Of a stretch of DNA of 64,000 bases, positions 51,495 through 64,000 are shown piece after piece; within the stretch, counting starts at the first letter, position 1; each line of letters starts with the position of its first letter. Source of the DNA: a bacterium (GTDB taxonomy: Bacteria; Bacteroidota; Ignavibacteria; SZUA-365); NCBI GenBank assembly GCA_020444325.1, contig JAHLLD010000001.1:372001-436000 (forward strand), written 5' to 3'. Below the pieces are notes generated by a model. The model had not been told where the DNA came from and made no database searches. It worked only from the letters and a program-made list of their open reading frames with translations. Made by a program: the position numbers and the translations under genes.

Positions 51495-51577
51495 GTTTTT
51501 GCGGATTGCAAAAAATGCGTAGATTTGTAATCTGTGGCACGTGAGATGAAACTTCTCCAGGTCACATCGAGTGGAGG

Positions 51578-51733
51578 AACATAGAATTTCACCTGGAGAG
51601 GTGTCCTCCTTCATCCCGCTTCGCGGGATTTCGGCGGACGCAGCAGGAGTGGAGAAACATAGATTTTCACCTGGAGAGGTGTCCTCCTTCATCCCGCTTC
51701 GCGGGATTTCGGCGGACGCAGCAGGAGTGAGGG
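51578..51733. repeat. Two 78-bp tandem units made of tRNA-Ser 5' end plus hairpin insert
   Basis: Units begin at 51578 and 51656 (AACATAGA...). Each comprises ~20 bp like the tRNA 5' flank, the first 9 bp of the tRNA (GGAGAGGTG), a 40-bp insert (51604-51643; 51682-51721), and the next bases of the tRNA (CAGGAGTG). The insert is a hairpin: ATCCCGC/GCGGGAT with a TTC loop, flanked by TTC on both sides and by TCCTCC/GGCGGA. The third copy of the flank leads into the intact tRNA. Confidence 0.85.
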
Positions 51734-51750
51734 AACATAGATTATCACCT

Positions 51751-51838
<88 letters not shown>

Positions 51839-51850
51839 AAGCAACGCAAC

Positions 51851-51883
51851 CAGGTCAGGTGTAGTCACGCCTGGCCTGTTTTT
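51851..51883 (+). terminator. Terminator after tRNA-Ser
   Basis: CAGGTCAGG and CCTGGCCTG form a 9-bp stem with one G-U pair and a 10-nt loop, followed by TTTTT. It starts 14 bp after the tRNA 3' end. Confidence 0.85.
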
Positions 51884-51934
51884 ATTGGGTCAAATGAACA
51901 CGCGGTACCACGTAGTGTGCCCACATGGCACCAG

Positions 51935-52013
51935 TTTGGGACACTTTTGGGACATTCTATCCGGTACTGTATTTTCTAGAAGTCTTTGCCTATACTGACT
52001 GACCGGGAGTCAG
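51935..52013 (+). promoter_or_regulatory. Candidate promoter/operator for the ATPase-PIN-ligase operon
   Basis: TATACT (51991-51996) is a good -10 box. It overlaps an inverted repeat, CTGACT-N7-AGTCAG (51995-52013), which would cover the transcript start. Upstream, TTTGGGACA occurs twice exactly 11 bp apart (51935, 51946). No good -35 is seen. The operator role is inferred from position. Confidence 0.4.
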
Positions 52014-52077
52014 CTTTCAGAGGAAGCGATTCCTGGATGACATGAAGGGCTTGACGTCAATGACAGCTGAGGAAAGT

Positions 52078-53478
52078 ATGCTGAAACAACTACGAATACG
52101 AAACTTCAAAGGCTGGAAGGACACTGGTACCATTCGCATGGCTCCCATTTCTCTGTTCTTTGGTGCCAACAGCTCGGGAAAATCCAGCATCGGGCAATTC
52201 CTGATGATGCTGAAGCAGACAGTGGAGTCACCAGACAGAAAGGCGGTTTTTTATCCTGGGGGCAAAAACTCGGTAGTTCAACTTGGCTCCTATCAGGAAA
52301 TGGTCTTTCATCGTGACCCGAAAAACAAGATCACCTTCGGCTACCGGTGGTCTTTGCCGGAAACACTGAAGTTCAAGGACCCTTTGTCCGACCAGGTGTT
52401 CTCCGGTAACGAATTGAGTTTCAAAGCAGGCGTTGAGCTCAGCGATGCGACAATGCACTTGGTCCAGGTTTCAAAGTTCGAGTATCGACTACTAAACAAT
52501 GGTGAACAGGCGCTTTCGATCGAGCTATCAAGGAAAACTGAGAAGCATGAATATTCCGCTTCAGCTAAACAATACTCCCTTGTCCGGAAAAAGATGCGTG
52601 CTTGGGCACTCAAGGACATTGTTCGGTTCTATGGATTCCCTGATGAGGTTGTGGCCTATTATCAAAATGCGGATTTCGTTCAGGACCTCAATCTCGCGCA
52701 AGAGAAATTATTCAACTCAATATTCTACCTTGGGCCACTCAGAACAAAAGCTGATAGGCTTTATACCTGGGGTGGCATCACCCCTGAAAGCGTTGGGTTT
52801 TCTGGCGAAAATACTGTCGCGGCCATTTTGGCTGCAAGAGATCGTAAAATCAGTTTCGGGTATCGGAGGCCTGCAAAACCTCTCGAAGAAATAATTGCCC
52901 TCAAGCTCAAGGAAATGGGACTGATCGAAGAATTCAAGGTCAACCCAATTTCCGAACAACGGCAGGAGTACGAGGTAAAGGTTCGCACAAGAGGATCAAA
53001 AGATTGGGTTGATCTTCCAGATGTTGGATTTGGCATATCTCAGGTGCTACCGGTACTGGTGCAGTGTTTTTATGCTCCGGCTGGATCGATCATCCTGATG
53101 GAACAGCCAGAGATTCACTTGCATCCGAATGCACAATCGGCGTTGGCGGATGTGATGATCGACGTCATCAACTCCCGGGAGAACGGATCAGACAGGAATA
53201 TCCAGTTGGTCATCGAAACCCACTCTGAACATTTCCTGCGCCGCCTGCAGCGCCGCATCGCTGAGGATGCAGTCTCGCAGGAAAAAGTATCGGCCTATTT
53301 CGCCAATATCAGTAGGACACCCGCAACCCTAGAGCCGTTGCAAATAGACGTCTTTGGCAACATCCAGAACTGGCCGGAGAACTTTTTCGGCGATGAAATG
53401 GGCGACATAACCGAGCAGGCCAAAGCCGCCATGAAGAAGAGGATGCAAAAAACCGAAGATCCGGAGGCGTCCGCATGA
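52078..53478 (+). CDS. AAA ATPase, OLD/RecF-like with DUF3696-type C-terminus (defence-like)
   Basis: The product has 466 residues. LRIRNFKGWKDTG opens an ABC-type AAA domain; GANSSGKSS (residues 29-37) is the Walker A, ILMEQPEIHLHP (near 340) is Walker B plus the D-loop region, and VIETHSEHFLRRLQRR (near 382) is the switch histidine. The C-terminus (LQIDVFGNIQNWPENFFG) is DUF3696-like. It lacks a TOPRIM nuclease, so nuclease activity is probably the next gene's. I preferred ATG 52078 (AGGAAAG 5 nt before); 52042 and 52060 are alternatives. Its stop overlaps the PIN gene by 4 bp. GC is lower than the backbone. Confidence 0.88.
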   Translation: MLKQLRIRNFKGWKDTGTIRMAPISLFFGANSSGKSSIGQFLMMLKQTVESPDRKAVFYPGGKNSVVQLGSYQEMVFHRDPKNKITFGYRWSLPETLKFKDPLSDQVFSGNELSFKAGVELSDATMHLVQVSKFEYRLLNNGEQALSIELSRKTEKHEYSASAKQYSLVRKKMRAWALKDIVRFYGFPDEVVAYYQNADFVQDLNLAQEKLFNSIFYLGPLRTKADRLYTWGGITPESVGFSGENTVAAILAARDRKISFGYRRPAKPLEEIIALKLKEMGLIEEFKVNPISEQRQEYEVKVRTRGSKDWVDLPDVGFGISQVLPVLVQCFYAPAGSIILMEQPEIHLHPNAQSALADVMIDVINSRENGSDRNIQLVIETHSEHFLRRLQRRIAEDAVSQEKVSAYFANISRTPATLEPLQIDVFGNIQNWPENFFGDEMGDITEQAKAAMKKRMQKTEDPEASA

Positions 53479-54005
53479 GCCTTCCAAAGAAATGCTTGGT
53501 GGATACCAATGTGCCAATAACTGCCAATCTCGCCAGCCAGCCTGACATGGGGTCAGACGTATCCGATGCCTGTGTACTGGCCTGTGTCGAGGCACTTGAG
53601 CATGTCATTAAAAAACATGGCTTGATCATCGATGCGGGAGACGAAATTTTCGATGAGTATCGACAGCAGCTTTCCATGAAGGGACAGCCTGGTATGGGCA
53701 ATGCCTTCATGAAGTGGGTGAATGATCGACGATATAACCCAGAGTATTGCGATAGAGTGACCATAACCAGAAATGGCGATTCATACCAAGAATTCCCTCG
53801 GCATGACGATCTAAACGATTTCGACAGATCAGACCGAAAGTTTATCGCTTCAGCCAACTCCCACGCAGACAAGCCGCCCATTTTGCAGGCCACAGACAGC
53901 AAATGGTGGGGATGGAAGGATGCCCTCGCTGATGTTGGGATTACCGTTCATTTTCTATGCCCGGAGTATGTCGAGGCCAAATATTCTAAGAAGATGGGTA
54001 CATGA
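53475..54005 (+). CDS. PIN-like-domain nuclease
   Basis: The product has 176 residues. KCLVDTNVPITAN is a PIN-type N-terminus with the first catalytic Asp. IIDAGDEIFDEYRQQ holds a conserved acid, DFDRSDRKFIASA the central DxxD-like site, and PILQATDSKWW the last Asp before the C-terminal strand, so the acidic tetrad looks intact. PIN proteins are Mg/Mn-dependent RNases. Both ends are coupled by ATGA overlaps, to the ATPase upstream and the RNA ligase downstream. There is no antitoxin gene, so it is not a VapBC pair. Confidence 0.75.
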   Translation: MSLPKKCLVDTNVPITANLASQPDMGSDVSDACVLACVEALEHVIKKHGLIIDAGDEIFDEYRQQLSMKGQPGMGNAFMKWVNDRRYNPEYCDRVTITRNGDSYQEFPRHDDLNDFDRSDRKFIASANSHADKPPILQATDSKWWGWKDALADVGITVHFLCPEYVEAKYSKKMGT

Positions 54006-54700
54006 AGGAGAGCTTTTTCAAATTTCCTACAACCCCTCATCTGGCGACCTTGCCAGGGGTTGATATCAGGGGTGATAAGGTTTTTACAGAATCAGAACGT
54101 GAAGAATTCCTGACGCATGAGGTGACTGTAGAAGAAAAAGTAGACGGGGCGAACTTGGGGCTATCGTTTGATTCAGATGGGAATTTTCGCGCCCAGAACA
54201 GGGGGGCTTATTTGCATTTACCCAGCTCGGGGCAGTGGGAAAAACTCGACGATTGGTTGAGGCTCAACACCGAAACGCTTTTCGATCATCTTACTGACCG
54301 ATACATCCTGTTTGGTGAGTGGTGTTATGCACAGCATTCAATTTTCTATGGCAGCCTACCTGACTGGTTTCTTGCCTTCGATATTTACGACCGAGAGAAA
54401 CATCTCTTCCTGGCCACGGCACGCCGGGATCAACTATTCGCCGATATGCATATCACTAAAGTTCCATATATTGCACGTGGGAAATTTACTTATCCTGAGG
54501 TTCGAGAACTCTTATCACAATCGAAGTTGACAAATCTACCAGCTGAGGGGATTTATTTACGAGCTGGACACGGTGAATGGCTTGAACGACGTGCCAAACT
54601 AGTGCGTCCCGAATTTATCCAGGCTGTAGAGCAACATTGGTTTCGTTCCGCCATCAGACCAAACTGCCTAAATATCCGATCGAATTTCTTAAACAGTTGA
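54002..54700 (+). CDS. ATP-dependent RNA ligase (Rnl-type)
   Basis: The product has 232 residues. VEEKVDGANLGLSF is the nucleotidyl-transferase motif I with the AMP-accepting Lys. LFGEWCYAQHSI is motif III, WFLAFDIYDR IIIa, AEGIYLRAG IV, and RRAKLVRPEF motif V. The order and spacing match Rnl2-like RNA ligases rather than DNA ligases, and the ligase is compact with little C-terminal domain. It seals 5'-phosphate/3'-OH RNA ends. Its start overlaps the PIN gene stop. Confidence 0.85.
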   Translation: MKESFFKFPTTPHLATLPGVDIRGDKVFTESEREEFLTHEVTVEEKVDGANLGLSFDSDGNFRAQNRGAYLHLPSSGQWEKLDDWLRLNTETLFDHLTDRYILFGEWCYAQHSIFYGSLPDWFLAFDIYDREKHLFLATARRDQLFADMHITKVPYIARGKFTYPEVRELLSQSKLTNLPAEGIYLRAGHGEWLERRAKLVRPEFIQAVEQHWFRSAIRPNCLNIRSNFLNS

Positions 54701-55023
54701 TTGTATCTTTCTTAAGCATGCCGACACACTAACATGGTGAAGCAACAAACTTGGTGGCGAACTCGCGACAGGTCAATAACAACAGGACTGAGCGTGGAGG
54801 AATAGCACCCTCAGTTTTATGGAATAGTCCCAAGGGATCTAAAAAACAGTTTACCAAGATCTTCATCACGTGACCTGCGTCTGATCAATTTCGATCAGTC
54901 ACTTTCTATCAGAAGTTGTTGCGCATATAGGTGGGTATGCTCCAGTAATATCACGTCATGTGTAGCACGCAAAAAAGGCCCGCCCATTGCTGGACGAGCC
55001 TTTTTACTTTGAGTCTTCCTCGA
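54701..55023. other. Intergenic stretch between RNA ligase and integrase
   Basis: No gene is supported here. The region separates two convergent genes. ACTGAG/CTCAGT (about 54791-54819) with a following TTTT could weakly end the defence operon. CTGATC-AATTTC-GATCAG (54881-54898) is a small hairpin. The strong bidirectional terminator lies at 54971-55005. Confidence 0.6.
54971..55005. terminator. Bidirectional terminator between RNA ligase and integrase genes
   Basis: GGCCCGCCCA (54977-54986) pairs with TGGACGAGCC (54991-55000) with two G-U-type pairs, and has A6 on the left and T5 on the right. It can terminate the minus-strand integrase and any long plus-strand transcript. Confidence 0.8.
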
Positions 55024-56136
55024 TCAGTCTGAAATAGGGACAATGCCGACAAGATCCTGAACGACGTGCCCGAGACCTCTTGTTTCCATGTGTATGTAGC
55101 GCATTGTCTGTGCGATGGTAGCATGGCCCATCAACCGGGAGATGTACTGAACTGGAAATCCAAGTTCAGCAAGTTTCGTTGCGAACGTATGCCGAAATAG
55201 GTGGTTCGTCCCATGACCGATACCAGCGCGTTTTGCAACCTTGGAGCATACTGCCAACATCGCCCTCTCGCGAAGCTTACCACCCTGAGGAGCCATGAAT
55301 ACCAAGTCTGATTCTGAGTCCTGTTCACGAATACGTCTCAGCACTCTTAACAGGTCTTCGTTGATCGGGATGAGCCGATAGGCATTTCCTGTCTTCAGAC
55401 TGCCGTCTGGGGACGCCCATATACGCAGATAGGGCATGTCCTCGTCAATGAAGACATCAGTCCATTTCAGTTCTGCGATCTCACTGAAGCGTGCTCCAGT
55501 GTGAAGCATGCCGAAGAAGGCATCCTTATGAGCTGGATGCATCTCAACACGGAAGAACGCACGAAGTTGTTCATCCTTGTAGTACTCAGGCGGCCGCTTT
55601 TGGACTGGCAAGCTCTCGATATGGTCGAAGGGATTGAACTGTAGCGAACGCTTTCTTACTTCACGGTTGAACATCGTTTTGTACTTGGAGATGTACATGT
55701 TGACGGTTTTGGCTTGACGCGTTTTCACCTTCCCTGTCGATCCTTTGGGATCGATACACGGAGCCATGAGCTGCTGCTGTAGAAGGGAGGCGTGAACCTG
55801 AGAGAAATCTGAAAGCAGCGTGATATTGTTCGCGATACAGAATTCCCGGAGGTACTGGAAGATTGGTTGGTAGCGTTTCAGTGTCGACGCCGCGCGTCCG
55901 ACGTGATACTGTTCGAATTCATCGATTACATCCATGATGCGAAGACGGGGCCTTTTCAGGCCCCGCTTCACGCTCTTCTCGTCCTCCCTTTCGAGCAGGA
56001 TCTTCCGCACGAAGGATCGGGCGTCTTCACGATTGATAAATGTTCGCCGGGGCCGCTCTTTGCGGCTGAGACGAATGTCAACGCGGAATCGTCCGTCAGG
56101 CAACTGACGAATGTGCTTGTCAATGATCTTTTTCAT
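55024..56136 (-). CDS. Tyrosine recombinase / integrase
   Basis: The product has 370 residues. The N-terminal arm and SAM-like core-binding region are followed by the catalytic domain: HTGARFSEIAEL (Arg), SLKTGNAYRLI (Lys), HLFRHTFATKLAELGF (HxxR), LMGHATIAQTMRYIH (His/Trp site and nucleophilic Tyr). All catalytic residues are present. It probably integrates the surrounding element. It is ~3.2 kb from tRNA-Ser, with the ATPase-PIN-ligase operon in between, so the operon would be cargo. Confidence 0.92.
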   Translation of the reverse strand: MKKIIDKHIRQLPDGRFRVDIRLSRKERPRRTFINREDARSFVRKILLEREDEKSVKRGLKRPRLRIMDVIDEFEQYHVGRAASTLKRYQPIFQYLREFCIANNITLLSDFSQVHASLLQQQLMAPCIDPKGSTGKVKTRQAKTVNMYISKYKTMFNREVRKRSLQFNPFDHIESLPVQKRPPEYYKDEQLRAFFRVEMHPAHKDAFFGMLHTGARFSEIAELKWTDVFIDEDMPYLRIWASPDGSLKTGNAYRLIPINEDLLRVLRRIREQDSESDLVFMAPQGGKLRERAMLAVCSKVAKRAGIGHGTNHLFRHTFATKLAELGFPVQYISRLMGHATIAQTMRYIHMETRGLGHVVQDLVGIVPISD

Positions 56137-56283
56137 CGCGAATCACTTTGATTGTGGGACAGGACTCGAGGTGATATGACTTCATCAACTTCCTTGCGTA
56201 TGCATGGGCATGGCGGCGGCGGGAGAACAATCGCCTGATCCGACGCCGACCATTCCTTGCACTTACACGGTATTGGGCTTTCA

Positions 56284-56517
56284 TCAATCCACCCCCTCAA
56301 CGACGAGCTGCGCGAGCACCTCGATACGGACTTTGACCAGGTCCCCGAGCCGAACGACGGGGATCCGGCTATCCTCGGTCCTGTCACGGACGAAGGTTTC
56401 CGAAACACCGAGTTCCTTCGCAACCTCGCTGATGGAGAGAAGTGATTTTTGATACGTGGCGAGGAGGCGCTTGCGCACCCCCTCAACCGGGTCTTGATTC
56501 TGCTGGGCTGCCGTCAT
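56284..56517 (-). CDS. Small helix-turn-helix protein (excisionase-like)
   Basis: The product has 77 residues. LLSISEVAKELGVSETFVRDRTEDSRIPVVRLGDLVKVRIEVL looks like a winged-helix DNA-binding domain of the MerR/excisionase kind. It overlaps the gene upstream by 4 bp. It could control integration or copy the role of Xis for the neighbouring integrase. Confidence 0.7.
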   Translation of the reverse strand: MTAAQQNQDPVEGVRKRLLATYQKSLLSISEVAKELGVSETFVRDRTEDSRIPVVRLGDLVKVRIEVLAQLVVEGVD

Positions 56518-56750
56518 TCGATGCCTCCGGCGAGGATCCCAGCGACGTCGTAGACATGCAGGAAACTTTTCCCCATGCGGATTTCCGCACGGATCACATC
56601 GCGGCGAATGCGCGCACGGAGGAATTCCGCACTTGTGTCGCATTCTTGTGCTGCTTCGCGTACGAGCAACTGGTCGCGACCATACCGTTCACGCAAGTAC
56701 TTCACGTAGCGGTCACGAAGTGGGTCGGGGGAAGAAAGAAGAAAAGTCAT
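56514..56750 (-). CDS. Second small DNA-binding-like protein
   Basis: The product has 78 residues. DQLLVREAAQECDTSAEFLRARIRRDVIRAEIRMGKSFLHVYDVAGIL again resembles a helix-turn-helix (excisionase-like) domain. It is coupled to both neighbours by ATGA overlaps. Tandem small HTH genes next to an integrase often form the element's control switch. Confidence 0.65.
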   Translation of the reverse strand: MTFLLSSPDPLRDRYVKYLRERYGRDQLLVREAAQECDTSAEFLRARIRRDVIRAEIRMGKSFLHVYDVAGILAGGIE

Positions 56751-57496
56751 GAGTTCACCTCACGCTTAGTCTTCTTGTTCCCGATTCCAGCGTTTTTCCG
56801 TAAGTCAGCCACAGCGTCCCGAAGGACTTCGATGAATCGTTCGCGATACTCCCGCGGTGATTTAACCACCTTCGTATGGAGCACTTCGTTCACGGCCTTA
56901 ACAAAGCCAAGCAAGGTTGCCTCGTCCGGAATTGCTTCTGGCGTAAGGAGTTGCTCAATAGCGGTATCTGCGCGCTGCTGAACCTTACCCTTCTTGCCAC
57001 AGCTAAGATCGTATTGGCGCTGCGGTAATGCGGAAATGCTATTTTCAATACTCGAGCTATAGCGCTGTAGATAGTTTTGTGATCGCACCAATATTTCAGC
57101 TTCGGACTTGTCGAGTTCCAAACGTTCGATGCGTGATTGCTGAGAATGGGCTCTTGATAGGACTCTCCCACAACGCGTAAATCTACGCAAGAGCTTTGTC
57201 AGCCGTTTCAATTCCAGCTGATCCGCTGTCCGAAGATTCGAGGAAGTAGGACCGGATTGTGGGGTCTCGCTCAAAGCAAGCTTGACCGGATCGGTGTGAA
57301 GTCTGCTACGTATCATTTCACGAAGCGATTCACAATGGGCACGCCCCCACTGTGATTGCTGGTGGAGTTGTTGGATACTTTTGGCATCAACACCGGTGAT
57401 GCGCTCGCACGCGAGTTCGATGCTCTGTACGGCGAGGGTTAGTGACTCAGATGATATGATCTGGTCAGAGTTCGGGTCAATAATTGTGTAATTCAC
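56747..57496 (-). CDS. Unknown protein, first in integrase-side operon
   Basis: The product has 249 residues. I do not recognise it. It is mostly charged helix (LKRLTKLLRRFTRCGRVLSRAHSQQSRIERLELDKSEAEILVRSQNYLQRYSSSIENSI), with likely coiled-coil in the middle and a basic C-terminus. It starts at GTG with CGGAG upstream, and the start codon lies inside a perfect palindrome (57481-57501). It is coupled to the small HTH genes. A DNA-binding or element-maintenance function is possible. Confidence 0.6.
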   Translation of the reverse strand: MNYTIIDPNSDQIISSESLTLAVQSIELACERITGVDAKSIQQLHQQSQWGRAHCESLREMIRSRLHTDPVKLALSETPQSGPTSSNLRTADQLELKRLTKLLRRFTRCGRVLSRAHSQQSRIERLELDKSEAEILVRSQNYLQRYSSSIENSISALPQRQYDLSCGKKGKVQQRADTAIEQLLTPEAIPDEATLLGFVKAVNEVLHTKVVKSPREYRERFIEVLRDAVADLRKNAGIGNKKTKREVNS

Positions 57497-57501
57497 AATT
57501 A
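57481..57501. promoter_or_regulatory. Perfect palindrome over the GTG start
   Basis: TAATTGTG-TAATT-CACAATTA is an 8-5-8 inverted repeat. It covers the start codon and the first bases of the unknown protein gene. It could be a repressor site or an RNA hairpin limiting translation. Confidence 0.5.
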
Positions 57502-57972
57502 CTCCGTATACACTCCCTTGGAGCTAGGGTAATTATTGGATACCCATGGACTGAGGATACATCATTGCTCCAGAAATGAGGTCGATCAATTCGATTACAG
57601 TAGAACGTACGGGGATATGCCTCGGAACGAGGCGAGGGTGGGTATGGCTTCGAAATGTTGGTGATGGAGAACCAACTAGCATTAAAATATTAGTATTATT
57701 CATTTTAATATTTTCATGCATTCGAAGCCTACTATATGGGGGGCTCAGAATGACTGGATAAGTTTAAGAGAGCATTAATAAAATTCTTATGCATTCGAAA
57801 CCTACTATATGGAGGTTTGGAATGACTGTATAAGTTTAAGAGAACATTGGTCGTGGTGGAGGGTTAATGCGAGTCTGGGTTTACGCTGAATCTATTAACT
57901 CGATGGACGGTTGTTGCAGAAAGCCATACCCTTGAATCGAATATTTCCAATCCAAGGTGTTTGTTTTCACAT
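57502..57972. other. Intergenic region with long direct repeat and AT-rich palindrome
   Basis: No gene is supported here. ATTAAAAT (57681) and ATTTTAAT (57702) bracket an AT-rich 13-bp centre. Right after it comes a ~61-bp imperfect direct repeat (57716-57777 and 57789-57849), sharing ATGCATTCGAA, CCTACTATATGG, GAATGACTG and ATAAGTTTAAGAGA. Such a layout (AT-rich stretch plus iterated sequence) can be an origin, a recombinase arm site or a promoter with operators. The IS insertion begins at 57973. Confidence 0.65.
57716..57849. repeat. Imperfect ~61-bp direct repeat, 73 bp apart
   Basis: The two copies share ATGCATTCGAA, CCTACTATATGG, GAATGACTG and ATAAGTTTAAGAGA in order, with scattered substitutions. 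The 73-bp period and near-conserved spacing argue for maintained binding sites rather than chance. Confidence 0.75.
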
Positions 57973-58816
57973 GGTAATACGTACTTAGATCGGACCAATT
58001 ATTGCGCTATTTCCTCAACATGAGTCGACTGTAACAGCTTTAATATCAACGGATAAAGGTCTTCATCGCGGTGGTTGAATCGGTAGCAAAGTTCTGCCAG
58101 ATAAATGGGAAATAACTTTTTCGCCGCACCGCGGTATTGATACAGCCAGTGTTTCGCGCAACTCCAGAACCCCTCGATACCGTTGATATGGTCACGGCCT
58201 TTGGGCTTCCCACGTTCTTTTCGAACGACAACATGTTCTCCACGTACAGACAAAGAAGCATAGACTCGCCATTCATCAGTGAAGTACAGACTTCCTAGAC
58301 TCGTGTTCTCGCTGAGCAGGTCCAGCACATTTTCTTTGTCGCGTGCAGGGATCGGGAAGGCACGCACGGTTCCGTTTCGCTTGAGCAACCCGAAGACGAT
58401 GATCTTCCCGGCAGCTCCCCAGCCTTGTTTCCCTGGCCGATACCCGCCAAAACAGGTCTCATCGCACTCAATCGATCCATTGAGTTGCTCGCTGTCGGCA
58501 TGCTGGTGGATCCAAAGCGTCTTTCTGATTGCGCGATAGAACCGTTCGACGGTACGAACGGAGGCTGGAGTACGAAAGCGGAGACGGTAGGCAGGGACAC
58601 CGAGCACGAAGTACTCAAGCAGCTTCCGCTTCGCAGACTCCTTGATGCGAAAGCTCTGCCAGACCGTGCACAAGGTGTAGCTGCTCCGACAGTAGCGACA
58701 ATGGTACCGTTTGTCACTGAGCTTCCACGCCCAGTGATGCCCACAGTATAGACAAGATCGACGCATGATTTCTCGAATCTAAGCATTTCTCAGGTCCGTT
58801 TTGAGTACGTATTACC
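57973..58816 (-). mobile_element. Intact IS1595-family insertion sequence (844 bp)
   Basis: Terminal inverted repeats of 24 bp (57973-57996 and 58793-58816) match in 21 positions, beginning GGTAATACGTACT at each end. They are flanked by a perfect 8-bp target duplication, TTTCACAT (57965-57972 and 58817-58824), the usual length for this family. One transposase gene fills the element. The perfect duplication indicates a recent insertion. Confidence 0.93.
57999..58766 (-). CDS. IS1595-family (ISXO2-like) transposase
   Basis: The product has 255 residues. The N-terminal CLYCGHHWAWKLSDKRYHCRYC is a zinc ribbon. IECDETCFGGYRPGKQGWGAAGK and YFTDEWRVYASLS supply the first acidic residues of the DDE-type site, and HINGIEGFWSCAKHWLYQYRG matches the ISXO2-like core. 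The frame is complete. Confidence 0.93.
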   Translation of the reverse strand: MRRSCLYCGHHWAWKLSDKRYHCRYCRSSYTLCTVWQSFRIKESAKRKLLEYFVLGVPAYRLRFRTPASVRTVERFYRAIRKTLWIHQHADSEQLNGSIECDETCFGGYRPGKQGWGAAGKIIVFGLLKRNGTVRAFPIPARDKENVLDLLSENTSLGSLYFTDEWRVYASLSVRGEHVVVRKERGKPKGRDHINGIEGFWSCAKHWLYQYRGAAKKLFPIYLAELCYRFNHRDEDLYPLILKLLQSTHVEEIAQ

Positions 58817-58824
58817 TTTCACAT

Positions 58825-59166
58825 TGTTCAATGGCCTTCCACTGAATTGTGGAGCCAATGAATTCCTACGTCAAAGAACAAACCTGCCTCTTTTAGCAGG
58901 CTGATTGCGGAGCCTGTTGCGACCTCTTTATCAGTCGGAGCTGCGCCGTTCTGACAGAAATAACACCGGTGCACATGTTTTGTTACACCTGTTTTAAATT
59001 TCCGCCACATCCATGTCTGCAAACAATGTGCCAACAGGACCCGAAGCGCTATTTGACGGCATTTACTGGCATACTGGCAGGTCACTTCTGTCATTATGTC
59101 GAATTTGACTGCGATTTTGGCATAAGAGATATACGGAAACTGTTTCTAATCAAAATGGAGTCTCTT
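58825..59166. other. Intergenic stretch right of the IS
   Basis: Before the insertion this was joined to the region left of 57965. It contains CCTGC/GCAGG (58889-58907, hairpin) and a well-formed promoter at 59105-59133. A minus-strand frame at 58828-59094 has a CxxC pair but no clear start signal, so I leave it out. Confidence 0.6.
59105..59133 (+). promoter_or_regulatory. Sigma-70-like promoter for the Gam operon
   Basis: TTGACT (59105-59110), a 17-bp spacer and GATATA (59128-59133) match a standard promoter. It lies ~35 bp before the small peptide gene and 125 bp before the Gam-like gene. Confidence 0.55.
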
Positions 59167-59265
59167 ATGCAAACACGCCCATACCTTTTCAAAATCATTA
59201 TCGTCATCGGAGAGGAACTGATACGCAGAATCTTCCGGCGCAGATCGGAGAACGACGATGACTGA
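59167..59265 (+). CDS. Small basic peptide before Gam
   Basis: A 32-residue frame, MQTRPYLFKIIIVIGEELIR, ending in RRIFRRRSENDDD. GGAG lies 7 nt before the ATG, and its 3' end overlaps the Gam-like gene start by 8 bp. The mixed hydrophobic and very basic make-up may be a small regulatory or membrane-active peptide. No homologue known to me. Confidence 0.45.
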   Translation: MQTRPYLFKIIIVIGEELIRRIFRRRSENDDD

Positions 59266-59794
59266 TATGACATCGTTCATTGATGAGCTGATCGAAGAGC
59301 AGGAAAATCATGACGCAGCTCAAACGGAGGCGCACGCGGATTTGCTTCTGCTGGAGATATCCAACCTTCAGCAATCCATCGCGGACACGTTCACCACTGC
59401 CGAGGAAGAGCAAACGCTGATCCAGAAGTGGGCTTTGTCCCGCACGACGAAGATGCAGGACCGCATTGATCGTATCAGCCAGTATCTGGAAACGTTCATG
59501 ACAGAGCGCCATGAATCATCGGGAGAGAAAACACTGAATCTGGCTCACGGGACGCTGCGCATTAGAAAGTCACGCGAAAAAGTCGAGATCACTGACTTGG
59601 GGGAATTCCTGAAACACGCCCGGCCAGAAATGCTGAGAACGCAGCCGGAATCCAGCGCGCCAGATATGGCTGGTATCCGGTCCTGGATGAAGATGTCAGG
59701 CAAAGTCCCGCCTGGCGTTGAGGTCACCCCCGGCAAAAACGAATTTTCCATCAAGATAGAGGAACAGCCGCATGGAACAGACACAAAGGGCTAA
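59258..59794 (+). CDS. Host-nuclease inhibitor Gam-like protein
   Basis: The product has 178 residues. The N-terminal half is coiled-coil. LNLAHGTLRIRKSREKVEITD and GIRSWMKMSGKVPPGVEVTPGKNEFSIKI match the Gam family C-terminal motif (xGEVPPGVxVxPGxxxFxVKI). Mu Gam binds linear DNA ends and blocks RecBCD and exonucleases. GGAG lies 7 nt upstream. It is typical of phages and conjugative elements, and overlaps the next gene by 23 bp. Confidence 0.82.
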   Translation: MTDMTSFIDELIEEQENHDAAQTEAHADLLLLEISNLQQSIADTFTTAEEEQTLIQKWALSRTTKMQDRIDRISQYLETFMTERHESSGEKTLNLAHGTLRIRKSREKVEITDLGEFLKHARPEMLRTQPESSAPDMAGIRSWMKMSGKVPPGVEVTPGKNEFSIKIEEQPHGTDTKG

Positions 59795-60308
59795 ACTCGA
59801 TTTAGCCCTCAATCAACCCCGAACCTTAGTCCTTTTGTTTGATAACCCCCTCACCGGGGAGAACCGTTACGGCCCTTACTACTTGTATGCCTTCGCCGAT
59901 CCCGACACAGGCGAAGAGCTGAGTTTTTTCGCACCATCGGAAGCTCACGACATGCTTGAGCATTACAATGCGGGTGATCGTATCGAGATCACCAAGCACG
60001 CTCGCCAATCGGGAAAGAACGTCATCACGCAGTACATCGTTGTTCCGGCGAACGGCGGCCCGCTCAAGTCCAAGCTCAATGGGAACGGGAAGGCCGCGTC
60101 GCCAGCGCCGCATGCTGAGTCATCTCCGGTGACTCCATCAACCCGCGACAAGCTCTACGATCTGATGCTCCAGTCCTACAAAGACGCGCTTGCAATCCAA
60201 CAAGAAGTCAACTCATTAAATGTCGACAAATGTGCATTAAGCCTCTATATATCAAGGCAAAGAATGCTGACAAGTGGCAACGGCGTTGCCCTGACCTCTC
60301 TCACCTGA
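59772..60308 (+). CDS. Unknown element protein
   Basis: The product has 178 residues. The N-terminal ~95 residues alternate strands and look like an OB-type fold (TLVLLFDNPLTGENRYGPYYLYAFADPDTGEELSFFAP), followed by a Ser/Pro linker and a helical tail. It might be a nucleic-acid-binding partner of Gam. I do not recognise the family. It overlaps Gam, so the pair is co-translated. Confidence 0.55.
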   Translation: MEQTQRAKLDLALNQPRTLVLLFDNPLTGENRYGPYYLYAFADPDTGEELSFFAPSEAHDMLEHYNAGDRIEITKHARQSGKNVITQYIVVPANGGPLKSKLNGNGKAASPAPHAESSPVTPSTRDKLYDLMLQSYKDALAIQQEVNSLNVDKCALSLYISRQRMLTSGNGVALTSLT

Positions 60309-60341
60309 ATTAATTCCCCTACAATATTTACGAGGTAACTC

Positions 60342-61112
60342 ATGACCGACGTTGAACGGCGGTTATCGCCATACCTGTTTCCCGTGGCTGAAACATCCGT
60401 GTACCGTGACGGTGCCGGAGAGAATGGTGTGCCGCAACTCTCAAAAGACTACAAGGCCATCGTCCGCCAGGACAACGGCCAGCTCATCTCGATACAGCGG
60501 AAGACGTACAAGCTCGTTCCGAACTCGGAAGTCATCAAACCACTCATGGATCAGCTGCACAAGCTCGACACGTCCTGGTACGTTGACAGTTCTCATTCAT
60601 TCGTGGATGATGCCCGGATGAGACTGCAGATATCCTTTCCGGAACTCATTGTCCATGACGGACGTAGCGATATCGCACTGAGCCTCTACCTGCATAACAG
60701 CTACGACAGCTCTGAGGGCGTTCGTATGTACTTCGGAGCCATACGAGCAATCTGCAAGAACGGAATGGTCTTTGGCCAGATCCTTAGCAAATTCTATGGC
60801 AAGCACACGACGGGCTTCGATATGGAAAACCTGCAGCGTGAGCTTTCGGCCACAGCGGAAAAACTTCCAGTGATCAAGCACCGCATCGGCACGCTCCTGG
60901 AATCGAAGGTCGACAAAAATCTCCGCATGGAGATCGACCGCCGCCTGGGCAAGCGCGTGACCAAGTACATAGAGCAGCAGGAGCAGGAAACCCAGCGGGC
61001 ACAGAACCAGTGGGCCATGTACAATATTATCACCTACTACGTGAGTCACTTGGTTCGCCAGCGGATGCGTGCAGACTACCAGCTCCGAGCGAGCAAGATT
61101 TTCGGACTGTAG
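60342..61112 (+). CDS. DUF932 phage/plasmid-like protein
   Basis: The product has 256 residues. KDYKAIVRQDNGQLISIQRKTYKLVPNSEVI and the MYFGAIRAICKNGMVFG central segment are characteristic of DUF932 proteins, which are common in plasmids, ICEs and phages and linked to DNA maintenance. GAGGTAACTC lies before the ATG. It follows the Gam operon. Confidence 0.82.
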   Translation: MTDVERRLSPYLFPVAETSVYRDGAGENGVPQLSKDYKAIVRQDNGQLISIQRKTYKLVPNSEVIKPLMDQLHKLDTSWYVDSSHSFVDDARMRLQISFPELIVHDGRSDIALSLYLHNSYDSSEGVRMYFGAIRAICKNGMVFGQILSKFYGKHTTGFDMENLQRELSATAEKLPVIKHRIGTLLESKVDKNLRMEIDRRLGKRVTKYIEQQEQETQRAQNQWAMYNIITYYVSHLVRQRMRADYQLRASKIFGL

Positions 61113-61122
61113 ACAAGAAAAA

Positions 61123-61143
61123 AGGCCTGTGGGGAGCAGGCCT
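61123..61143 (-). terminator. Terminator of the XRE gene
   Basis: AGGCCTG/CAGGCCT form a 7-bp stem, with TTTTTTCT on the minus strand. It overlaps the stop codon of the XRE gene and lies just after the DUF932 stop. Confidence 0.75.
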
Positions 61144-61402
61144 ACTTCATTGAAAGTGCTTTTTCAAATTCCCGAACAAAACTGACGAAGTCTTTTCCGA
61201 GTGCGGACAGGATTGACCGCAGTTCCACGACATCCACGCGCCGTATGCCGCGCTCGATCTTGGAAAGATACGTCTGATCCTTCCCGATACGTTTCGCCAG
61301 CTCCACCTGCGTCATGTTTTTCTTCTGGCGCAGCTCAATGAGCATATCCAGCAAAATGCTGTAATCCCTGCGATGTATCGATTTCGTTTGTGCGTCTTCC
61401 AT
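61142..61402 (-). CDS. XRE-family transcriptional regulator
   Basis: The product has 86 residues. LRQKKNMTQVELAKRIGKDQTYLSKIERGIRRVDVVELRSILSALG is a classic helix-turn-helix of the phage Cro/C1 type. The start at 61402 follows the palindromic operator at 61433-61449. It is divergent from the protease gene, which it probably regulates. Confidence 0.9.
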   Translation of the reverse strand: MEDAQTKSIHRRDYSILLDMLIELRQKKNMTQVELAKRIGKDQTYLSKIERGIRRVDVVELRSILSALGKDFVSFVREFEKALSMK

Positions 61403-61422
61403 ACGTGGAAAAGGTAGACGCG

Positions 61423-61454
61423 TTGCATGCAGTATGCGAAAATCGCATATTAAT
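61423..61454 (+). promoter_or_regulatory. Shared promoter/operator of XRE regulator and protease
   Basis: TATGCGA-AAA-TCGCATA is a perfect 7-3-7 palindrome at 61433-61449. TTGCAT (61423) and CATATT (61446) with 17 bp between make a possible protease promoter over it. The operator lies in the 86-bp gap between the two divergent genes. Confidence 0.6.
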
Positions 61455-61488
61455 GTGTCCATCATTCTTCTCGCATAAAGGAGGTGTT

Positions 61489-62907
61489 ATGCTTCGTTCT
61501 CTGTTTTTCTTTGCGCTGTGCGGCTTGATCGCAGTACCTGCACACGCTCAGCTCGATGAACACTCGATTGTCAAGATTTTCGTCACATCGACGCCGCCTA
61601 ATCCATATCGGCCCTGGGCACCAAGCAATCCCACGGAGGCTACCGGGACCGGTTTCATCATTGAAGGCAACCGCATCATCACGAACGCGCATGTTGTCGC
61701 GTACAGTACCTTTGTTATGGTGCGCCGGGGCGGTGACTCGAAGAAATATGTCGCACACCCGGAATATGTTTGTCATCAGGCTGACCTGGCCGTGCTTACA
61801 GTAGAAGACCAACAGTTTTTTGAAGGTGTTCCGCCGCTATCGATCGGCGAAAGTCCGTCGACGCAGGATCAGGTTACTGTTGTAGGATATCCTACGGGTG
61901 GTGATGAGCTTTCCTGGACATCCGGCATCATATCCCGTATTGAAGTCAATGCCTACGCCCACTCATGGGAGTCGCTACTCACCATCCAAGTTGATGCAGC
62001 AATCAATCCAGGTAACAGCGGTGGTCCTGCCATTGTCGATGGAAAAGTTGTGGGCGTATCGATGATGACCCGCACCGATGCAGACGGGGTGAGTTACATC
62101 ATACCCCCGGAGATCATCGACCATTTCCTCGCAGATATTGAGGACGGCAGAGTCGATGGCTATCCGCTCGCAGGATTTACCTATGTCGCGTTGGAAAATC
62201 CCGGTCTCCGAAAGCAATTTGGCCTCGATCCTGAAGGAGAGACCGGCGTCTTCATCCGGGATGCTTCCTTCCCGCCAAGTGGCAATCAGGTTTTTCAAAA
62301 AGGCGATATTGTCCTGGCGGTGGATAACGTGCCGGTGCATTCGAATGGAAAGATCCGTAATGGGCTGAACATGCTCGACCTTTCCTATCTTGTTCGTCGG
62401 AAGCAAGTAGGAGAAATGGTACCATTCAGTATCATGCGGGATGGGAAAACTATGACCGTCGACTGGAAGGCCGAATATGTTCCTGAGCTTGTCCCATACC
62501 GCAGCTACAGCCGGGTTACGCCATATTATCTGTTCGGTGGTGTGTTGTTTACGATACTCACCGGCGATGTCATCTACGCGGACACCGAGGATTGGCCGGA
62601 TCCGGAGCTCTACTACTTCACGACACGGCACCGAAGGGAAACGCGGAAGCAGATCATTTTCGTGCATTCCATTTTCCAGCACGAACAGACACGTGGAATG
62701 ATAGGGCAGGTACATATCGTCAGCACGATCGATGGCAAGAGTGTGGCAAGCTTCAAGGATCTTGTTGAGATGCTGGACAAGGCAGACGGTACCGTGAGCA
62801 TCGTTTGCGATTCTGGCCTTACGCTAAAGCTCGATGCCGATGAAGCGCGGAGCATTGAACCCGATATCATGGAGACCTATGGTATTCCGAAGAAAAAAGT
62901 CCTCTGA
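61489..62907 (+). CDS. Exported Deg/HtrA-like serine protease
   Basis: The product has 472 residues. MLRSLFFFALCGLIAVPAHAQ is a signal peptide. ITNAHVV (His), QADLAVL (Asp) and INPGNSGGPAI (Ser) form the trypsin-like triad. A PDZ-like region (~260-340; VFIRDASFPPSGNQVFQKGDIVLAVDNVPVHS) follows, with a second degenerate one near the C-terminus. It resembles the Deg proteases with chloroplast-type C-terminal extensions. AAAGGAGGTG is a strong ribosome site. In a mobile region such a protease is unusual. Confidence 0.88.
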   Translation: MLRSLFFFALCGLIAVPAHAQLDEHSIVKIFVTSTPPNPYRPWAPSNPTEATGTGFIIEGNRIITNAHVVAYSTFVMVRRGGDSKKYVAHPEYVCHQADLAVLTVEDQQFFEGVPPLSIGESPSTQDQVTVVGYPTGGDELSWTSGIISRIEVNAYAHSWESLLTIQVDAAINPGNSGGPAIVDGKVVGVSMMTRTDADGVSYIIPPEIIDHFLADIEDGRVDGYPLAGFTYVALENPGLRKQFGLDPEGETGVFIRDASFPPSGNQVFQKGDIVLAVDNVPVHSNGKIRNGLNMLDLSYLVRRKQVGEMVPFSIMRDGKTMTVDWKAEYVPELVPYRSYSRVTPYYLFGGVLFTILTGDVIYADTEDWPDPELYYFTTRHRRETRKQIIFVHSIFQHEQTRGMIGQVHIVSTIDGKSVASFKDLVEMLDKADGTVSIVCDSGLTLKLDADEARSIEPDIMETYGIPKKKVL

Positions 62908-63178
62908 GCCAGATCCGCGATTGGATGAACCGTACTGGCCTGAGTGCTGTCCAGAGTGCGGATCCGACAAACTGGAGAAAGTCGTGTTCGGCATACCGAC
63001 TGAGAATGAAGAGCTTCTGGGTAAACGTCGTATGGCCTGCTTTCTCCCATGCGATGCTGATATCATCAACCTGCCACACTGGTATTGCCGCAAGTGCAAG
63101 CATGGATGGCAGGCAAAGGATGATTTCCGCTGCTATGAATGGAAAGAATGGTTGAAAGCCTTCCGCCACCTTCCTTGA
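62879..63178 (+). CDS. Zinc-ribbon protein
   Basis: The product has 99 residues. WPECCPECGSDKLEK and WYCRKCKHGWQ supply two CxxC-type pairs for one zinc. GGAG lies 5 nt before the ATG, and the gene overlaps the protease stop by 29 bp, so the two are co-translated. Function unknown. Confidence 0.65.
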   Translation: MVFRRKKSSEPDPRLDEPYWPECCPECGSDKLEKVVFGIPTENEELLGKRRMACFLPCDADIINLPHWYCRKCKHGWQAKDDFRCYEWKEWLKAFRHLP

Positions 63179-63199
63179 CCTACGACACATCTATCACAG

Positions 63200-63231
63200 A
63201 CGGCCTTGTCCATTCGGATGAGGCCGTTTTT
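63200..63231 (+). terminator. Terminator of the protease/zinc-ribbon transcript
   Basis: ACGGCCT/AGGCCGT, with an inner GTCC/GGAT helix and an ATTC loop, is followed by TTTT. It lies after the zinc-ribbon gene and before the RadC-like gene. Confidence 0.8.
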
Positions 63232-63246
63232 CATATGGAGGCAGTA

Positions 63247-63837
63247 ATGCAGTACGAGCACTGCACGACCGAACAGCTCGTGCAAGAAATCATCGGCAGA
63301 CGCATTCATGATCTGCCTCACTTGCGAGACATCAAACGAAATCCTGACTTACTACTAACCATTGATGGCATTGGCGCTGTATCTGCAAAACGGATACGTG
63401 CTGCGCTTGAGCTTGGAATCCGGTATGCAACTGAGCCGAGTACAGATAAACCAGTGATAACAGGTCCTGAGGATGTCGTGGAGATTTACGGCCCCAGGCT
63501 TCGCGACCTCGACCACGAACGGTTTTACGTCTTGCTCATGGATAACGGCGGCAGGATCACGTACGAACACTTGGTATCGCAAGGCATAGCGAATGCGAGT
63601 CTTGTGCATCCAAGAGAAGTATTTCGGGAAGCCATACGACGTTCTGCATCGAACATGATACTACTTCACAACCATCCGAGTGCAGTTCGTGAGGCTAGTC
63701 AAGAAGATTTTCTCATCACATCTCAGCTTGTCGAAGCTGGAAAAATCATTGACATACAGATTCACGATCACATAATCATCGCCGGTCATTCCTACGTGAG
63801 TTTTGCGGAGAATGGCTGGCTGGAGGCATCATCATGA
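63247..63837 (+). CDS. RadC-like JAMM-domain protein
   Basis: The product has 196 residues. A helix-hairpin-helix-like part (LLTIDGIGAVSAKRIRAALELG) precedes the JAMM/MPN core: ILLHNHPSAVREASQED is the H-x-H-(x10)-D metal site. GGAGG lies 5-6 nt before the ATG at 63247; longer frames start inside the previous gene. RadC-like proteins are common in mobile elements, but their function is debated. Confidence 0.88.
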   Translation: MQYEHCTTEQLVQEIIGRRIHDLPHLRDIKRNPDLLLTIDGIGAVSAKRIRAALELGIRYATEPSTDKPVITGPEDVVEIYGPRLRDLDHERFYVLLMDNGGRITYEHLVSQGIANASLVHPREVFREAIRRSASNMILLHNHPSAVREASQEDFLITSQLVEAGKIIDIQIHDHIIIAGHSYVSFAENGWLEASS

Positions 63838-64000
63838 AGAAAACAAATCTCGCCTTGCTGATCGCTGCAGGGCTGCTCGCAATCATCAACCTGATGAATG
63901 GCCAGACTGTTACCCAGGACAGCTGCTTCTACCGCAATGGCAGGGTTGCAACGCTGATGACCTACAAAGACAGTAAGCCGGTGCTTCGTGAAGCATTTTA
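63834..64000 (+). CDS. Exported protein, 3' partial
   Basis: The gene overlaps the RadC-like stop by 4 bp (ATGA) and runs off the window. MKKTNLALLIAAGLLAIINLMNGQ is a signal-peptide-like start, followed by TVTQDSCFYRNGRVATLMTYKD. Nothing further can be said. Confidence 0.6.
   Translation, partial: MKKTNLALLIAAGLLAIINLMNGQTVTQDSCFYRNGRVATLMTYKDSKPVLREAF

Follow-up and report, generated by a model that had tools for sequence, protein, structure and literature searches.

An ATPase, a PIN-domain nuclease and a compact RNA ligase are encoded by three overlapping genes in the window, the 64,000-nucleotide stretch of bacterial DNA analysed here, and genomic context supports well that this trio is defence-associated. 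We favour, at a probability of roughly 0.55, a mobile anti-phage module that serves as a contingency in the manner of PrrC and PARIS, in which an ATPase-triggered PIN nuclease would cut RNA and the ligase would reseal it. The ATPase–PIN pair is already catalogued, as the PADLOC candidate system HEC-03; what appears undescribed in the literature searched is the regular presence of the ligase as a third gene and the siting of the trio within BREX type 3 loci. The genes of the trio are as follows.

52078..53478, + strand: ATPase with DUF3696 tail, HEC-03B (PADLOC, Pfam, alignment)
53475..54005, + strand: PIN-domain nuclease, HEC-03A (PADLOC, structure model, residue conservation)
54002..54700, + strand: compact RNA ligase, nucleotidyltransferase core only (Pfam, structure model, motif conservation)
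53475..53478, + strand: ATGA overlap of the ATPase and PIN genes (sequence; −4 spacing in 51/72 homologues)
54002..54005, + strand: ATGA overlap of the PIN and ligase genes (sequence; −4 spacing in 58/69 homologues)

Three overlapping genes and their products

The sequence-only reading had joined the three genes by their two ATGA overlaps and proposed a co-translated module. Both overlaps are present, and the same −4 gaps are kept in most homologues. Because they are kept, the arrangement of the trio is far beyond chance, and the homologue survey rules out an artefact or a chance gene order. The longest ATPase reading frame opens at 52042, but the first residue of aligned orthologues corresponds to the codon at 52078, which has a GAGG 5 nt upstream, so the sequence favours 52078, the start originally assigned. 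The window operon contains no small antitoxin gene.

Pfam places AAA_15/AAA_21 and DUF3696 domains in the ATPase, bearing out the DUF3696-type tail first proposed for it. The Walker A motif reads GANSSGKSS, and its lysine, K35, is kept in 13 of 13 aligned sequences. Among PADLOC models, the ATPase matches HEC-03B (PDLC04148, E 6.8e-132) and the PIN protein HEC-03A (PDLC04147, E 8.9e-33), and the two genes are adjacent and overlapping, as in a HEC-03 locus. The ATPase also matches the Menshen NsnB (E 3e-59), PDC-M55A (E 5e-55) and PARIS AriA (E 4e-28) models, while the window ligase matches no PADLOC model. Within open-licence PMC papers, HEC-03 appears in the searchable defence literature by name only, in a survey; no paper there was found to link DUF3696 with an RNA ligase or to describe a ligase as a component of HEC-03, and no title or abstract describes BREX with an RNA ligase or PIN module.

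The PIN protein has no significant match in Pfam and none by sequence in the PDB. A model built from a 69-sequence alignment (plasmid rows left out of the folding) has a mean pLDDT of 96. Its best solved matches are VapC21 (Z 9.2, 126 residues, 3.6 Å) and VapC11 (Z 9.1). Foldseek returned no significant match and poor superpositions; the matches listed by a second structural aligner are nearly all PIN or PIN-like nuclease domains, one of them the CRISPR-Cas9-associated protein PcrIIC1. The predicted fold is that of a VapC-like PIN domain. Residues D10, E61, D117 and D120 are invariant in 77 of 77 sequences and D141 is kept in 75 of 77, in keeping with the PIN-like nuclease and intact acidic site claimed earlier. 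No PIN relative was found in phage genome records. In three Chlorobiaceae-like genomes (L011, L016 and L017), truncated PIN copies of ~64 residues share the end QQLSMFQ, with Ala in place of the first catalytic Asp in L011 and L016; these copies are probably decayed cassettes.

The third gene had been read as a compact Rnl-type ligase with all five motifs, and this stands. The protein matches Pfam RNA_ligase (PF09414, E 5.8e-31), and motifs I, III, IIIa, IV and V are conserved as K46-x-D-G, F-G-E, F-D, E-G and K199, with the nucleophile K46 and the residues of the other motifs kept in 66 of 66 sequences (65 of 66 at a few positions). The nucleotidyltransferase core of the model (pLDDT 88.5) superimposes on NgrRnl (Z 17.5) and T4 Rnl2 (Z 16.0), and also on TbREL1 and an archaeal RNA ligase (Z 14.9). 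RNA ligases thus score 17.5–14.9 and DNA ligases 12.2 or less, except for an Aquifex entry titled putative DNA ligase (Z 13.1), which groups with archaeal RNA ligases. We predict an ATP-dependent RNA ligase with an NgrRnl/T4 Rnl2-like core, closest in fold to nick-sealing RNA ligases. It lacks OB and C-terminal domains, so that the accessory domain used by solved RNA ligases for substrate binding is absent, and it carries a conserved tail of its own around and after motif V (F205, H212, W213, N221). In a tree that tested for a single origin of the trio ligases, the outgroup branches were very long.

Distant relatives of the ligase, at 29–34% identity, have as neighbour a protein that combines HD and kinase-like AAA_33 domains. 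Plasmids L137, L138 and L139, from Pseudomonas aeruginosa, Sphaerospermopsis and Variovorax, encode such related RNA ligases followed by the HD + AAA_33 protein, an end-healing candidate. Bacterial HD-Pnk-type proteins heal 5′-OH and 2′,3′-phosphate ends. That the trio lacks a gene of this kind is consistent, by an indirect argument, with a PIN nuclease that makes directly ligatable ends. On a Miltoncostaea oceani plasmid (L142:3605-4651), an RNA ligase domain and an N-terminal HNH nuclease motif are joined in one protein.

Recurrence, mobility and defence contexts

We scanned ~85,000 species genomes for PIN relatives and found 401, of which the best 80 were kept, a choice biased towards the window's PIN. 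Within these best 80 of 401 loci, the ATPase is present in all 80 and the ligase lies directly downstream in 71 of the 79 that are informative, L037 ending at a contig edge. The ligase is missing from the other eight (~10%), where the PIN active site is intact. More distant members (L010, L012, L013 and L018–L022) have the ligase in six of eight cases. Among the hosts are Thermodesulfobacteriota, Pseudomonadota, Chlorobiota, Planctomycetota, Verrucomicrobiota, Synergistota, Nitrospirota, Spirochaetota and an archaeon, Methanolobus; many are metagenome-assembled genomes, whose single placements may be wrong, and several are isolates. The survey suggested at the outset thus finds the trio widespread and refutes its uniqueness to this locus.

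An even sample of 395 same-phylum genomes contained HEC-03A in 13; the ligase adjoins it in 10 of these, and a broken remnant does so in another. Searched in reverse, the same 395 genomes gave ligase matches above 80 bits only within the trio (10/10), which rules out, as a general case, a stray ligase or a neighbour from DNA repair. Distances among the three proteins correlate at 0.80–0.90 over 67 trios, above all shuffles, a sign of long joint inheritance, not of interaction. The nearest relatives of the window trio (PIN identity 80–88%) are mostly Desulfobulbus-like and belong to another phylum, a relationship that implies horizontal transfer.

The location between a tRNA gene and an integrase had suggested cargo, and the boundaries of an integrative element can be placed around the trio.

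51751..51838, + strand: tRNA-Ser (GGA), integration site (ARAGORN)
51811..51841, + strand: attL, 31-bp exact repeat of the tRNA 3′ end (sequence repeat)
55024..56136, − strand: tyrosine integrase of the element (Pfam Phage_integrase, E 6.1e-26)
G000:C1:457705-457735, outside the window: attR, second 31-bp copy (sequence repeat)

The element spans 33.9 kb, from 51811-64000 of the window on to G000:C1:457735 (L107–L109), with a GC content of 50% compared with 57% upstream. Behind attL the cargo begins with the trio, and the integrase comes next. Further cargo comprises type I restriction genes (HsdM, HsdS and the C-terminal part of HsdR) and Mu Gam-like, NYN, MBL-fold and primase-like proteins. 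Upstream, at ~51570-51750, a unit of roughly 80 bp, CACCTGGAGAGGTGTCCTCC...GCAGCAGGAGTG, occurs in two near-identical copies and a third partial one, extending to the 5′ end of the tRNA-Ser gene.

Defence genes surround many of the relatives, as the proposed defence association anticipated. Counting a locus as BREX-embedded when its 8-kb flanks hold at least two BREX type 3 genes, we found 26 such loci among the best 80 of 401, 25 of them with the ligase. The order is BrxC – PglXI – ATPase – PIN – ligase – BrxHII – PglZ – BrxA, with PADLOC model matches at E 0 for BrxC, PglXI, BrxHI|BrxHII and PglZ and at 1e-100 for BrxA. By way of reference, ~20 of the 395 same-phylum genomes, each considered in full, have a strong DUF6079 (BrxC) match. 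At least five loci (L027–L030 and L061) have type I restriction genes next to them, and four lie near a TOTE primase-helicase gene. The trio is also found on conjugative plasmids and, in L023, beside an integrase on a P4-like satellite, to whose trio no E. coli genome holds a similar one at the DNA level. BREX-embedded and free copies are intermixed on the ATPase+PIN tree, and the trio therefore seems to move in and out of BREX loci as a cassette.

The window trio itself is flanked by the tRNA gene and the integrase rather than by BREX type 3 genes, and BREX-3 is ruled out in its genome, which has no DUF6079 match. The window copy, if it works, would therefore do so independently of BREX-3. 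Another contig of this genome encodes one PglZ-domain protein, in an open frame of 525 aa, perhaps PorX-like.

Several relatives have additional neighbours. In L035, L048, L060, L069 and L076, a 98–99 aa protein of no known family (MSGGHFDYKESYLGYIAEQLE...) is encoded 3–8 bases upstream of the ATPase, and could be a fourth component. A second DUF3696 ATPase (L041:3300-5201, 634 aa, NsnB-like, E 1e-72) precedes the trio within one BREX locus. On an Aeromonas veronii plasmid (L018), the genes after the trio encode a metallophosphoesterase and a GTPase-associated system (GASH) cluster, the latter another candidate conflict system.

Function of the module

In the favoured reading, the DUF3696 ATPase would act as sensor and regulator, releasing or activating the PIN nuclease when infection is detected or when the surrounding BREX or restriction system is inhibited. 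The nuclease would cut cellular RNA, and growth and phage production would stop, as with PrrC and PARIS, which act on tRNA. Because PIN enzymes leave 5′-phosphate and 3′-OH ends, the co-translated ligase could reseal these cuts with neither kinase nor phosphatase, and the cell might then tolerate leaky activity or recover. We infer the trigger, the RNA (tRNA) target and the repair of PIN cuts by the ligase; it is the modelled fold that points to RNA.

Loci without the ligase bear on how far the nuclease depends on it. They are scattered over the approximate ATPase+PIN tree (FastTree), with nine changes for nine rows, and the ligase appears to have been lost repeatedly while the PIN gene stayed intact. 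No common replacement was found among them; an Acinetobacter plasmid has an HNH gene in place of the ligase. On an Aeromonas caviae plasmid (L136, NZ_AP022111.1), ISAeme25 copies split the ligase gene and leave the PIN gene whole, a natural ligase-minus variant. The losses and this broken copy therefore make the ligase accessory, not an essential antitoxin, and not needed to survive the PIN nuclease. Any repair step would be optional, not a requirement. The lack of the substrate-binding accessory domain in the ligase also counts against the favoured reading.

These losses could also mean that the ligase has a separate role, mending RNA damaged otherwise (by phage RNases or other toxins) or processing RNA while it rides with an ATPase–PIN defence pair. 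PADLOC catalogued that pair alone, and the ligase, lost several times independently, is dispensable to pairs that keep the PIN active site. However, the ligase and PIN genes are very strongly coupled, with a −4 gap between them in 58 of 69 loci, and a general repair ligase should also occur elsewhere, whereas all ten strong matches in the 395 genomes lie directly behind a PIN gene. We consider a separate role unlikely.

A restriction-like action of the ATPase and PIN nuclease on DNA, as in Septu or Gabija, with a ligase that seals host DNA or RNA–DNA nicks, strikes us as improbable. The best PIN matches are VapC RNases, and the ligase, which has no OB domain of the kind found in DNA ligases, scores higher against RNA ligases (Z 17.5–14.9) than against their DNA counterparts (12.2 or less). 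These observations are set against an ATPase class that also serves the DNA-cutting GajA and OLD, the structural match to PcrIIC1, and the residence of the module in DNA-targeting systems (BREX, type I restriction–modification).

An addiction cassette that stabilises mobile elements, with a PIN toxin limited by ATPase and ligase and phage resistance as a secondary effect, would suit the VapC-like fold and the mobile settings of the trio (plasmids, a satellite, an integrative element). It is improbable given that the trio has repeatedly been inserted between BREX-3 core genes, that its ATPase class is typical of defence sensors and that the window operon has no small antitoxin gene.

A broader claim, that the trio confers reversible immunity through an RNA-cutting effector with a dedicated ligase, as an add-on to BREX-3 or type I restriction or alone on mobile elements, is tentative, a little short of an even chance; on this claim, infected or falsely alarmed cells would halt translation and later mend their own RNA. 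In the conflict between phages and bacteria, RNA repair is known chiefly from the phage side, where T4 counters PrrC with Pnk and Rnl1; a ligase carried by a host defence cassette would reverse this picture and make 'abortive' RNA cleavage reversible. It would also explain what a compact ligase family, found almost nowhere outside the trio, is for. The BREX-3 embedding provides a direct handle, namely whether the trio fires once BREX is blocked, and the survey yields cultured donors (Pantoea, Aeromonas plasmids, Akkermansia glycaniphila and Methanolobus).

Comparison with known systems

HEC-03 shares the ATPase and PIN families of the trio and their order, but has no ligase model, whereas a ligase is the third gene here and in ~90% of relatives. 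The Menshen NsnB and PDC-M55A systems are likened by their similar ATPases alone, and HEC-03B scores far higher.

PrrC is likewise an NTPase-linked RNase that stands by as a contingency beside or within a restriction system; it is tied to a type I restriction system, and its tRNA cuts are mended by T4 Pnk and Rnl1 (PMC3506569). The trio differs from PrrC, a single protein that combines an ABC NTPase with a HEPN anticodon nuclease, in having separate genes for ATPase and nuclease and a PIN fold. PrrC ends need a kinase and a phosphatase, and the repair enzymes Pnk and Rnl1 are the phage's, while the ligase of the trio is encoded in the operon. PARIS has a related AAA_15/AAA_21 ATPase, AriA, and a nuclease effector, which cuts tRNA (PMC12409363). 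Its AriB is a Toprim nuclease and no ligase is described, whereas the partner in the trio is a PIN protein.

The trio ligase resembles NgrRnl (Rnl5 type) and T4 Rnl2 in its nucleotidyltransferase core, yet has neither the N-terminal OB domain of the former nor the C-terminal domain of the latter, and ends in its own conserved tail. In many genomes the trio is inserted into BREX type 3, between PglXI and BrxHII; free copies also exist.
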